This document shows positions 23,786 through 55,162 of a DNA stretch of 64,000 nt, piece by piece. The stretch is from Blattabacterium cuenoti (GTDB taxonomy: Bacteria; Bacteroidota; Bacteroidia; Flavobacteriales; Blattabacteriaceae): positions 62,001-126,000 of the forward strand of contig NZ_CP059208.1 in the NCBI RefSeq assembly GCF_014252055.1, in the 5' to 3' direction. A program made the position numbers and the translations under genes. The notes beneath the pieces were generated by a model. The model had not been told where the DNA came from. It did not search any database and worked only from the letters and a program-made list of their open reading frames with translations. The stretch's first letter is position 1. Each line of letters starts with the position of its first letter.

Positions 23786-24775
23786 ATGGAAAATATATTA
23801 ACAGGAATCCGAAGTACAGGAGTTCCTCATTTAGGAAACATTTTAAGTGTCATTATCCCGTCAATTAATATGGTAAATAAAAGAAAAAAAGGTTTTTTTT
23901 CTTTTATATTTATCGCAGATTTACATTCCATAATCCAAACAGAAAATATACAAAACATAAAAAACAATGTTTATAACATTACAGCTACATGGTTAGCTTT
24001 TGGATTGAATACAGAAAATAGTATTTTTTATAGACAATCAGATGTTCCAGAAGTTACTGAATTAGCTTGGTATTTAAGTTGTTTTTTCCCTTATCAACGA
24101 CTAACATTAGCGCATTCCTTTAAAAAAGAAAAAGATAAAAAAAAAATAAATGTAGGATTATTTACTTATCCTATTTTAATGGCTGCTGATATTTTACTTT
24201 ATAACGCAAAAATAATTCCAGTAGGAAAAGACCAATTGCAACATATAGAGATAGCACGACGAATAGCTTATTTTTTTAACAAAAGAATAGGAAAGGAAGT
24301 ATTTTCATTACCTAATCCTTATTTACAGGAAAAATATATGTTTATCACTGGAACAGATGGAACAAAAATGAGTAAATCTAAAAATAACTATATTGATATT
24401 CTTTCTTCAAATGAAATTTTGAAAAAACAAATTATGAAAATACAAACAGATAATAAATCTTTAGAAGAAAAAAAAAATCCTGACAAAGATTACATAATGT
24501 CTTTATATAAATTAATTTCCCCAAAAGAAAAAATAGAAAAGATGAAAGAAAAATATATAAATGGTGGATATGGATATTTAGAAGCAAAAATAGCATTATA
24601 TGAACAAATAATTTGTAAATTTTCTGCAGAAAGAAATAGATTTTTTTCCCTTATAAAAAATAAATCATTATTAGATGAAATTCTTTTTCATGGAGCTAAA
24701 AAAGCAAAAAATATAGCAATAAAGCGAATAAATTACATTAGAAAATACTTGAATTTCAATTCATTATTATCATAG
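23786..24775 (+). CDS. trpS: Tryptophanyl-tRNA synthetase (TrpS)
   Basis: Class I synthetase charging tRNA-Trp, 329 residues, normal for the bacterial form. The opening LTGIRSTGVPHLGN holds the HIGH-type motif (HLGN, residues 15-18), and GTKMSKSKNNYI near residue 194 is the KMSKS loop. VGKDQLQHIEIAR near residue 152 is the conserved tryptophan-pocket segment. It follows atpG after 30 nt and is separated by 92 nt from grpE, a gap containing the sigma-54-like site. Confidence 0.96.
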   Translation: MENILTGIRSTGVPHLGNILSVIIPSINMVNKRKKGFFSFIFIADLHSIIQTENIQNIKNNVYNITATWLAFGLNTENSIFYRQSDVPEVTELAWYLSCFFPYQRLTLAHSFKKEKDKKKINVGLFTYPILMAADILLYNAKIIPVGKDQLQHIEIARRIAYFFNKRIGKEVFSLPNPYLQEKYMFITGTDGTKMSKSKNNYIDILSSNEILKKQIMKIQTDNKSLEEKKNPDKDYIMSLYKLISPKEKIEKMKEKYINGGYGYLEAKIALYEQIICKFSAERNRFFSLIKNKSLLDEILFHGAKKAKNIAIKRINYIRKYLNFNSLLS

Positions 24776-24808
24776 ATAAAAAATGACATTATGACACAAT
24801 TATAAATA

Positions 24809-24825
24809 TTGGCAAATATTTTGCT
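24809..24825 (+). promoter_or_regulatory. Candidate sigma-54 (-24/-12) promoter for grpE-dnaJ
   Basis: The 17 nt TTGGCAAATATTTTGCT carry GG at 24811-24812 and GC at 24823-24824 with exactly 10 nt between, the invariant spacing of sigma-54 promoters (TTGGCA-N6-TTGCT here; consensus TTGGCACG-N4-TTGCW). A start about 12 nt after the GC would lie near 24836, leaving a leader of about 30 nt before the grpE ATG. The inner GCAAA-TAT-TTTGC is also an inverted repeat. Use of the site depends on rpoN, which is not in this window. Confidence 0.5.
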
Positions 24826-24867
24826 ATCCTGGTCGATAGGAGTTATGTTGAAAATATTTTTTATATT

Positions 24868-25461
24868 ATGGACACCAATAAAAATACTGAAAAAAAAGAT
24901 TCTTGTTTTACTATTTCCGATGATGGTTCTCCTCTTTACAATGAAAAAAATAAAACACAAAAAAAACATAAAGAAGTTTTAAAAGAATCCGAATCCTTAG
25001 AATCATTGAAAAAGAAGGTAGAGGTTCTTAAAGAAGATTTAAAAAAAGAAAAAGATAAATACTTACGTATTTTTGCAGAATTTGAAAATTCTAAAAAACG
25101 TACTCAAAAAGAAAGATTTGACATTTTCATAACTGTTCATGAACAAATTCTTATAGATCTAATTCCAATTTTAGATGACTTTGAACGTAGTTTAAAAGAA
25201 TTAAAAAAATCTAAAGATGAATTCCTTATTAAAGGAGTTACCCTTATACAAGAAAAGCTTATTAAGGTTTTGAAAAAAAAAGGATTAAAGAAAATAAATA
25301 TAAAAAAAGGAGATGATTTCAATACAGATTTTCATGAAGCAATTACACAAATACCAGCTATTACAGAAGATTTAAAAGGAAAAGTTATAGAAATAATAGA
25401 AGCTGGATATATTCTTAAAGAAAAAGTAATAAGACATGCCAAAGTCATTACTGGAAAATAA
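24868..25461 (+). CDS. grpE: Nucleotide exchange factor GrpE
   Basis: Co-chaperone that releases ADP from DnaK, 197 residues. A polar N-terminal region (1-45) precedes a long coiled coil (about 46-95: ESLKKKVEVLKEDLKKEKDK), then FAEFENSKKRTQKER, the conserved neck, and the C-terminal beta domain ending GYILKEKVIRHAKVITGK. It lies 24 nt before dnaJ, forming a grpE-dnaJ pair. No CIRCE element is visible upstream; a sigma-54-like -24/-12 site is. Probably stress- or constitutively expressed. Confidence 0.96.
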   Translation: MDTNKNTEKKDSCFTISDDGSPLYNEKNKTQKKHKEVLKESESLESLKKKVEVLKEDLKKEKDKYLRIFAEFENSKKRTQKERFDIFITVHEQILIDLIPILDDFERSLKELKKSKDEFLIKGVTLIQEKLIKVLKKKGLKKINIKKGDDFNTDFHEAITQIPAITEDLKGKVIEIIEAGYILKEKVIRHAKVITGK

Positions 25462-25485: not shown

Positions 25486-26607
25486 ATGATGAAAAAAGAT
25501 TATTACGAAGTATTAGAGGTATCTAGAAATGCTTCTTCGGAAGAAATTAAAAAATCATATCGAAAATTAGCAATTAAATATCATCCGGACAAGAACTTAA
25601 ATAATAAAAAAGAAGCAGAAGAAAAATTTAAAGAGGCTGCTGAAGCTTATGAGATTTTAAGTGATCCAGAAAAAAGAGAACGTTATGATAAATTTGGTCA
25701 TTCAGGTGTAAAAGGAAGTACTTCTGCAGCAGGTGGGATGAATATGGAAGATATTTTTACTAATTTCGGAGATATCTTTGCTGATGCATTTGGCGAAGGT
25801 TTTTCTAGTTTTGGTTTTGGAAGATCTACAAGATATAAAACTATTAAAGGAAGTGATTTAAGAATAAGAGTAAAACTTTCATTAGAAGAAATAGCTAATG
25901 GTACAGAAAAAAAAGTTAAGGTAAAAAGATTAAAAGTAGCTAAGGGAATAAAATACAAAGATTGTTTATCTTGTCATGGAACAGGTCAAATAACACACAT
26001 TACAAACACTATATTAGGAAGAATGCAAACAACTTCTCAATGTAATGTTTGTTCTGGAACAGGAAAAAGTATAGAAAATATACCTTACGGAGCTAATAAA
26101 CATGGATTAATAAAAGAAGAGGAATTAGTAGATATAAAAATACCATCAGGTATTATGGAAGGAATACAATTAAAAGTTTCCGGAAGAGGAAATGAAGCTC
26201 CTTTTGGAGGAGTCCCTGGTGATTTAATTATTCTAACAGAAGAAATTCCTCATCCAAAATTGAAAAGAGAAGGAAACAATTTACATTATGATTTATATAT
26301 TTCATTTCCTGATGCAATATTAGGAGCTGTAAAAGAAGTTCCAACTATAAATGGAAAAGCTAGAATTAAAATAGATACTGGAACACAATCAGGAAAAACT
26401 TTAAGGTTGAAAAATAAAGGATTACCTAAAATTAATGGATATGGATATGGAAGTTTATTGATTCATGTAAATGTTTGGACTCCTAAAAAAATAAATGAAG
26501 AACAAAGAAAATTTTTTGAAAAAATGAGGAAAAATGAAAATTTTCTTCCTCATCCAGGAAATGAGGAAAAATCTTTTTTTGATCGTGTAAGAGAAATGTT
26601 CTCCTAA
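25486..26607 (+). CDS. dnaJ: Chaperone protein DnaJ with a single zinc centre
   Basis: Hsp40 co-chaperone of DnaK, 373 residues (a second ATG lies one codon in). The J domain occupies residues 1-70 with HPD in YHPDKNL near residue 34. A Gly/Phe-rich linker follows (about 75-115). The zinc region has only two CxxCxGxG repeats, CLSCHGTG near 161 and CNVCSGTG near 187, where classical DnaJ has four. By position these are repeats 2 and 3 (zinc centre II); repeats 1 and 4 are replaced. I recall a similar layout in other flavobacterial DnaJ proteins. The C-terminal substrate-binding domains are intact. Confidence 0.96.
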
Positions 26608-53199: not shown

Positions 53200-55059
53200 T
53201 TAACAAAGATCTTTTAATTTTTTAGATACGAAAATATCTAGATATTTTCCACGTAATAAATTTTTTGATAAAAGTGTTAAATTTATAATATCTTGTATTA
53301 GATTTTTTCTTTTTTCTTCAAATTTTTCCTCTAAAATTTTTTTCATTAATATATGATTAGTATTAACTATTAATTCATAATATTTACCTTCATCTTTCTC
53401 TATAAGATCTTTTTTTAGATAGTTCATTTCTTTCATCCTTCTTAAGAATTCCGGAATAACAATTAAAAAAGGATCATCATTTTTAGATAAATCTTCTAAT
53501 TTAATAGATGAAAAATTCATGTTTTCCACTAAATTTTTTTTAACGTAATTTTCTATATTCTTTTTTTGTTCTTCTGATAAAGAAGATTTATTTTCTACTT
53601 TATTAGAAATCAACTTGTCAATATGATCTGAATCTATCCTAACAAAACAGATATCCTTATACAATAATTCTAATTTTTGTATGAAATGAATTGAAAGTGG
53701 ACTATCTAAAATTAGAACTTCATAAGATCTATCTAATGCTTTTTTAATATATCCATATTGTTCTTCTTTATTAGAAGAATATAGAAAAACAATTTTTCCA
53801 TCCTTATTTGTCTGACAGTCTTTTACTTTTTCCTTAAATTCTTCTAAGGTAAAAAAGATCCTATCTACATTAGGAAATGTGTAAAAATCTATACACTTAT
53901 CAAAAAAATTTTGGACACTAATCATTCCATATTCCACAATTATTTTTATGTTTTCCCATTTATTTTCAAAATCTTTCCTATCATTTTTAAACATATAACT
54001 TAACTTATCTGCAACTTTTCTTGTTATATATTTTGATATATTCTTCACAGAAGGATTATTTTGTAAAGAAGACCTTGAAACATTAAGAGGGATATCAGGA
54101 GAGTCTATTACTCCTCTTAATAAGCTTAAAAAATCTGGTACTACTCCTTCTAAATTATCTGTAATATAAACTTGATTCTGATATAAATGTATTTTATCCT
54201 TTTGGATGTCAATTCTTTGATCCATTTTTGGAAAAAATAAAATTCCTGTCAAATTAAACGGATGGTCTATATTTAAATGAACCCAAAATAAAGGGTTTTC
54301 TAATTGATTAGGATACAATTCATGATAAAAATTTGAATAGTCTATATCTCTTAATTCTATAGGATTTTTTTTCCAAGCAGGAAAAGTATTATTAATGAAA
54401 ATCTCCTTATTATTATCTCCTTCATTATCTTCACATGATAAAGTAATTTTTACAGGCATAAATTTACAATACTTCTTCAACAATTTTAAAATTTGATCAT
54501 ATTCTAAATACTCTTTACTTTCATCATTAACAAATAAAACAATTTCCGTCCCCCTATTTCTTTTTTCAATTTGTTCCATAACAAAATTAGGAGTTCCATC
54601 ACAAGACCAAAATATCGATGAATAATCTTTCTTATAAGATTGTGTAAAAATTTCAACTTTATCAGCAATCATAAAAGAAGAATAAAATCCTAACCCAAAA
54701 TGTCCAATTATATTAGAAGAACTATCGGTTTTATATTTTTTAATAAACTCTTCTGCTCCAGAAAAAGCTATTTGATTTATATATTTTTCTACTTCTTCCT
54801 TGGTCATTCCAATTCCATTATCTATTACATGAATAGACTTATTTTTTTTATCTATTAAAATTCTAATTTTTAAATTATCAACTACATCTATATCACTATC
54901 ACTTAACTTTCCTAAGTTAACTAAAGTCTTTAGTTTTAAAATTGCATCTGTTGCATTAGATACAAGTTCACGCAAAAAAACTTCTTGATCTGAATAAAGA
55001 AATTTTTTTATGATAGGAAATATGTTCTCTGAAGTTACACTAATCTTATTCTTTTCCAT
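53200..55059 (-). CDS. htpG: Chaperone protein HtpG (Hsp90)
   Basis: Bacterial Hsp90, 619 residues. The GHKL ATPase domain is clear: FLRELVSNATDAILKLK (about 24-40), VIDNGIGMTKEEV (about 79-91), GHFGLGFYSSFMIADKVEIF (about 122-141). The middle domain includes GVVDSPDIPLNVSRS-like LLRGVIDSPDIPLNVSRSSL near 320, and the C-terminal dimerisation domain is complete. A single gene, convergent with the exonuclease gene. I see no obvious heat-shock promoter in the 103 nt upstream. Confidence 0.97.
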   Translation of the reverse strand: MEKNKISVTSENIFPIIKKFLYSDQEVFLRELVSNATDAILKLKTLVNLGKLSDSDIDVVDNLKIRILIDKKNKSIHVIDNGIGMTKEEVEKYINQIAFSGAEEFIKKYKTDSSSNIIGHFGLGFYSSFMIADKVEIFTQSYKKDYSSIFWSCDGTPNFVMEQIEKRNRGTEIVLFVNDESKEYLEYDQILKLLKKYCKFMPVKITLSCEDNEGDNNKEIFINNTFPAWKKNPIELRDIDYSNFYHELYPNQLENPLFWVHLNIDHPFNLTGILFFPKMDQRIDIQKDKIHLYQNQVYITDNLEGVVPDFLSLLRGVIDSPDIPLNVSRSSLQNNPSVKNISKYITRKVADKLSYMFKNDRKDFENKWENIKIIVEYGMISVQNFFDKCIDFYTFPNVDRIFFTLEEFKEKVKDCQTNKDGKIVFLYSSNKEEQYGYIKKALDRSYEVLILDSPLSIHFIQKLELLYKDICFVRIDSDHIDKLISNKVENKSSLSEEQKKNIENYVKKNLVENMNFSSIKLEDLSKNDDPFLIVIPEFLRRMKEMNYLKKDLIEKDEGKYYELIVNTNHILMKKILEEKFEEKRKNLIQDIINLTLLSKNLLRGKYLDIFVSKKLKDLC

Positions 55060-55162
55060 AGAATAAATAATTATTCAATAAAATAATATCTTCAAATATC
55101 ATACCACTCTTAATTAAATAATACCGTTGTCATATACAATTATGTCAGTTATGTAACTATTT

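Follow-up and report, generated by a model that had tools for sequence, protein, structure and literature searches.

As a rule, obligate insect endosymbionts do not retain alternative sigma factors. Does the chaperone locus grpE-dnaJ of Blattabacterium cuenoti nonetheless carry a working sigma-54 promoter, and, if it does, which protein acts on it? We addressed this question in a window of 64,000 nucleotides (G000:C1:62001-126000, where G000 is this genome, a single contig of 622,023 bases), and compared the genome with 48 others, giving a set of 49 Blattabacterium genomes from one genus. Coordinates without a contig prefix are those of the window unless stated otherwise. The grpE gene (24868..25461, + strand; 197 aa; Pfam PF01025, E 1.4e-36) follows a trpS-like gene (23786-24775) across a gap (24776-24867) of 92 nt, the length given in the original prediction, and is followed after 24 nt by dnaJ (25486..26607, + strand; 373 aa; Pfam DnaJ, DnaJ_CXXCXGXG and DnaJ_C), with which it is probably co-transcribed. 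A consensus scan places a sigma-54 -24/-12 promoter, TGGCAAATATTTTGCT, within this gap at 24810..24825 on the + strand. In the stretch TTGGCAAATATTTTGCT (24809-24825) the GG dinucleotide occupies 24811-24812 and the GC dinucleotide 24823-24824, which yields the GG-N10-GC arrangement originally proposed, and 11 of 12 positions match TGGCACRNNNNTTGCW, which we take to be the sigma-54 consensus. Both this site (11/12) and a site located 57 nt ahead of groES (10/12) place the GG at -24 and the GC at -12 with 10-nt spacing in the pattern TGGCAC-N5-TTGC. General sigma-54 promoter geometry predicts that transcription of grpE starts at 24836 (+ strand), 12 nt past the C of the -12 GC. Close to this position, an AGGAG (24838-24842) precedes an out-of-frame ATG at 24846 whose short frame overlaps the grpE start (24846-24868); the AGGAG is probably meaningless, because it is absent from relatives.

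Taken on its own, a single sequence of this type could arise by chance in an AT-rich gap. The whole 622-kb genome, which contains 33 kb of intergenic DNA, was scanned for GG-N10-GC, and first-order Markov simulation of all intergenic DNA gave an expectation of 0.025 sites matching at least 11 positions and 0.255 sites matching at least 10, in keeping with the earlier judgement that a chance match was improbable. Three intergenic sites reach at least 10/12, namely the grpE site, the site before groES and a further 11/12 site in a large gene-free block that is taken to be rRNA. Moreover, the GG and GC dinucleotides, proposed at the outset as the letters to follow across strains, are kept in 42 of the 49 genomes. 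The conservation of the site already refutes the chance reading, and in combination with the low expectation per genome and the phylum-wide recurrence before grpE described below it reduces the probability of that reading to practically nothing. Nitrogen regulation was also considered as the role of RpoN and rejected, as the putative rRNA site apart the intergenic scan above 9/12 returns only grpE and groES.

Upstream of the promoter lies a second element, a palindrome that the original prediction had not contained. This putative activator site, TGACATTATGACA (24784..24796, + strand), is positioned 13 nt ahead of the promoter and matches 11 of 12 positions of TGTCATNATGACA, the Blattabacterium family consensus of the palindrome; it is also found before grpE in free-living Bacteroidota. 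The sequence TGNCATTATGAC occurs exactly twice in the 622-kb genome, at 24784-24796 before grpE and at 434358 (contig numbering) before groES, and both copies are intergenic and accompanied by a sigma-54 promoter. Scanning the genome, as had been suggested for a check, showed that groESL too is preceded by a sigma-54 promoter with this palindrome upstream of it. When genome-wide sites were ranked with a scoring matrix trained only on 18 grpE sites from free-living species, grpE came first (37.6) and groES second (26.7), and the next site (20.8) had no palindrome. With palindromes counted as present at 10/12 or better, 40 of the 49 grpE regions contain one and two more genomes have a variant, whereas the groES regions contain the promoter in 49/49 genomes and the palindrome in 47/49. 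At both loci, the letters of the -24/-12 elements and of the palindrome are kept while the flanks drift. Measured from the palindrome centre, the first G of the promoter is 19-21 nt away at grpE, and at groES 20 nt (1 genome), 40-43 nt (7) or 50-54 nt (39). These distances group near 20, 41 and 51 nt, approximately whole helical turns, with a resultant length of 0.78 at 10.5 bp and 0.85 at 10 bp for species that are not independent of one another. Upstream of both promoters there is, then, a conserved and helically phased palindrome at which activator binding is predicted.

The proteins that such a promoter would use are both encoded in the genome. RpoN is intact, with its DNA-binding domain (PF04552, E 9.6e-49) and an RpoN box of sequence ARRTVAKYR, and it is full length in 49/49 Blattabacterium genomes, in agreement with the original statement that the genus keeps rpoN. 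The enhancer-binding protein gene that was to be looked for alongside it is found beside groES (G000:C1:432328-433608; 427 aa) and encodes the one clear sigma-54 activator of the genome (PF00158, E 2e-66; E 5e-65 for the match at residues 13-179); the second-best PF00158 match, at E 3e-10, is an 871-aa Clp-like ATPase. The activator is composed of an AAA+ domain (residues 13-179), a lid (185-260) and a Fis-type HTH (HTH_8, 385-425), and it contains the Walker motifs and GAFTGA loop of AAA+ enhancer-binding proteins (GESGVGKE, GGTIFLDE, and GSFTGA, a one-letter change from GAFTGA). Its lack of an N-terminal sensory domain, together with the AAA+ and Fis-type HTH architecture, makes it PspF-type, and its AAA+ part matches PspF structures, although NtrC-type and FleQ structures are matched more strongly. 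The gene order in this genome is miaB-activator-lptE-secG-groES-groEL, in which miaB, lptE and secG were named by inspection and comparison. The activator is present in 49/49 congeners and in 112 of the 119 genomes sampled from the order, and the activator, secG, groES order is also kept in the free-living genome G051, along with lptE and a TPR-like gene.

Considered together, the sequence comparisons make it very probable that a working sigma-54 promoter drives grpE-dnaJ via a single activator bound to the palindrome, that groES-groEL is driven in the same manner, and that RpoN is kept for proteostasis. The position of the grpE palindrome counts against this explanation, as its centre near -47 is nearer to the promoter than typical sigma-54 enhancers are. 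The palindrome could instead be the operator of some other DNA-binding protein, for example a repressor, in which case the activator would act elsewhere or need no site. A third TGTCATNATGACA-type palindrome, which precedes miaB-activator with no sigma-54 promoter in 13/13 congeners inspected and has decayed to TGTCATGACA in this genome (G000:C1 about 430910-430935), would fit such a repressor-type site; however, this third copy stands ahead of the activator's own gene cluster, no other clear sigma-54 activator carrying a Fis-type HTH was found in the genome, and the palindrome follows sigma-54 promoters with phased spacing and disappears together with them. We therefore consider an unrelated operator unlikely. 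PspF acts at its sites as a repressor of its own gene, and by analogy the miaB-activator palindrome is a probable autoregulatory site from which the activator would repress itself.

The pattern of loss among the 49 genomes bears on whether the grpE promoter is still in use. It has been lost in G009, G010, G014, G015, G022, G038 and G039, all of which are smaller than 600 kb, so that 7 of 11 genomes below this size lack it, as compared to 0 of 38 larger ones (Fisher p 4e-6, uncorrected for phylogeny). None of these seven genomes keeps a good palindrome at grpE, while the groES promoter is retained throughout, small genomes included. This pattern fits a promoter-palindrome module that works as long as it is present but that grpE can do without once genome erosion is advanced. 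It could also be read as the mark of a relic, once a sigma-54 promoter and now idle in the stable bacteriocyte environment, a reading with which the degraded miaB and htpG elements of this genome also agree. Against it, the GC-bearing -24/-12 elements and palindrome letters are conserved in an AT-rich, drifting genome as their neighbours change, and rpoN, the activator and the groES promoter are intact in 49/49 genomes; an idle promoter accordingly seems quite improbable to us. A point against the preferred explanation is that the promoter is missing in 7 of 49 genomes, so that grpE can be expressed there by other means. The sigma-54 site could be real and yet serve as a stress booster, while a sigma-A promoter (TTTG...TAnnTTTG) that overlaps it or lies downstream supplies most grpE-dnaJ mRNA. 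The seven genomes without the site still have grpE, pairs of sigma-54 and other promoters are known in F. psychrophilum (e.g. remFG), and TATGTTG-like blocks partly recur across species in the leader (24836-24867), but by eye there is no good TAnnTTTG at the site, and conservation peaks in the -24/-12 elements and the palindrome. Dual control of this kind is a serious possibility, though we lean against it. CIRCE/HrcA control was ruled out: in agreement with the original reading, no CIRCE (TTAGCACTC-N9-GAGTGCTAA) is found in the genome, where the best match is 14/18. Screening the ORFs with a simple sigma-70 family motif gave no match, not even to the expected rpoD, and so carries no weight for or against a sigma-32 gene (rpoH).

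Related elements precede further chaperone genes. In Blattabacterium, TGGCATAATGATTG is almost invariant upstream of dnaK (30 regions), and TGGCAY-N6-TTG, usually followed by A, is found before dnaK in 30/30 sampled Flavobacteriaceae, most of which also have a TGNCA-N3-TGNCA palindrome 20-21 nt upstream of it. The dnaK element is thus shared, with a variant -12 element. Blattabacterium has a diminished form of its palindrome, in many cases a half-site near 42 nt, and in this genome only a half-site is seen. In the dnaK promoters of Blattabacterium (dnaK of this genome, G000:C1:411331) and of Flavobacteriaceae, where TGGCAY-N6-TTG is highly conserved, the last -12 position is A, G or T and not the C of TTGC, which counts against the preferred explanation; if this promoter is sigma-54 dependent, its -12 element is an unusual variant. 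On the opposite strand of the window, htpG (53200..55059, - strand; 619 aa; assigned by an HtpG motif and orthologue search) is preceded at 47 nt by a weak, possible sigma-54-like site, TGGTATGATATTTGAA (55091..55106, - strand), which is degenerate here, and by a degenerate palindrome, TGACATAATTGTA (55135..55147, - strand), whose 36-nt distance falls outside the usual phase. Of 30 congeners, 20 have the htpG element, and relatives often have a palindrome about 20 nt upstream of it. In free-living G051, the groES upstream region contains TGGCATTTTTTTAGCC.

To see how widely the arrangement occurs, we searched 84,980 species for the composite TGTCATNATGACA-N12..42-TGGCA-N6-TTGC. Of its 19 matches, 13 have a gap of 12 or 13 nt (binomial P 6e-12, assuming uniform gaps), and 12 of these directly precede grpE, all in Bacteroidota. 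The hosts are Tenacibaculum, Myroides, Flavobacterium, Roseivirga, a Cyclobacteriaceae, a Marinifilaceae and Blattabacterium. The thirteenth, in a Verrucomicrobia MAG, has no grpE downstream and was counted as chance. Matches with other gaps fall largely outside Bacteroidota and most were taken as chance; among them, a Lentimicrobium MAG has a clpB-like gene preceded by a gap-22 composite, longer by one helical turn, which suggests that clpB belongs to the regulon of some Bacteroidota. With the filter used here, the grpE site was not detected in many of the scanned Flavobacterium/Chryseobacterium-like genomes, which again counts against the preferred explanation.

Sigma-54-type starts for groESL, dnaK, grpE-dnaJ, lon and htpG have been TSS-mapped in F. 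psychrophilum (SM4 promoters, cluster B254; PMC9723704), and the kind of promoter found here is therefore already known. That bacterium belongs to the same class and has the same promoter type before grpE-dnaJ and groES-groEL (PMC9723704), and there, as in Blattabacterium, 3.3 kb separate an activator-LptE transcription unit from the start of groES. In contrast, it is free-living, with three PF00158 proteins and a larger regulon that includes gliding genes, whereas Blattabacterium has one clear activator and a chaperone-only set. A 2025 survey predicts sigma-54 enrichment of GroEL, GroES, GrpE, DnaJ and DnaK in Flavobacteriia and Bacteroidia; its regulons are promoter-matrix predictions only, and its text describes neither an activator site nor a Blattabacterium regulon (PMC12316311). 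The original prediction considered chaperone genes under RpoN control unusual, which is correct relative to E. coli or Bacillus but not within this lineage (PMC9723704, PMC12316311). RpoN has also been noted as unusual in Blattabacterium, Walczuchella and Uzinura, with a nitrogen role tentatively suggested for Walczuchella (PMC3971599). The text of PMC9723704 contains neither an activator-site palindrome nor an activator assignment; the earlier papers that we searched name sigma-54 promoters but not the activator site. As far as the searched literature shows, subscription papers lying outside it, the palindrome, the identity of the activator and an endosymbiont regulon reduced to chaperones are new.

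We propose that a dimer or higher oligomer of the activator binds TGACATTATGACA about 20 nt ahead of the -24 GG, on a fixed helix face, and would hydrolyse ATP to open the closed complex of RpoN-RNA polymerase, so that grpE transcription would begin near 24836. The same activator would raise groES-groEL transcription from a copy of this palindrome located about 50 nt upstream, and would act at dnaK and htpG through reduced or variant versions of the arrangement. The miaB-activator palindrome, present in most congeners, would probably provide autorepression resembling that of PspF of the E. coli phage shock system, whose architecture of AAA+ and Fis-type HTH without a receiver domain the activator shares. 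It differs from PspF in targeting cytosolic chaperones and not psp genes, in carrying about 120 more residues between lid and HTH, and in the closeness of its site to the promoter. The target genes are those of sigma-32 (RpoH) and HrcA/CIRCE control, which employ a different sigma factor family or a repressor. DnaK sets the activity of sigma-32; a sensor-less activator could plausibly be governed in a comparable way, through chaperone titration, or else through a partner protein. RpoN would thus have been retained for proteostasis, a regulatory role that came down from free-living Bacteroidota. According to a long-standing idea, high chaperone levels buffer unstable proteins in endosymbionts, and a retained RpoN system that points to chaperones agrees with it. 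More broadly, the palindrome and the groES-linked activator constitute a concrete candidate for chaperone control in Bacteroidota. We give even chances to a wider reading, in which Blattabacterium sigma-54 is a dedicated proteostasis sigma factor served by a single sensor-less activator. This activator would read TGTCATNATGACA close to the promoter and in helical phase with it (at grpE, about -47), its activity may follow free chaperone levels, and the same activator-palindrome pair would be the general heat-shock/proteostasis switch of Bacteroidota.

A smaller endosymbiont genome of the same family, G064 (345 kb), keeps the activator and the activator-secG-groES order. Palindrome-plus-promoter-like sequences are seen there before grpE (TGTCAAAATGACA ... 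TTGCATAAATTTTGCT) and before groES (TGACATTATGTCA ... TGGCATATTTTTGGAT).
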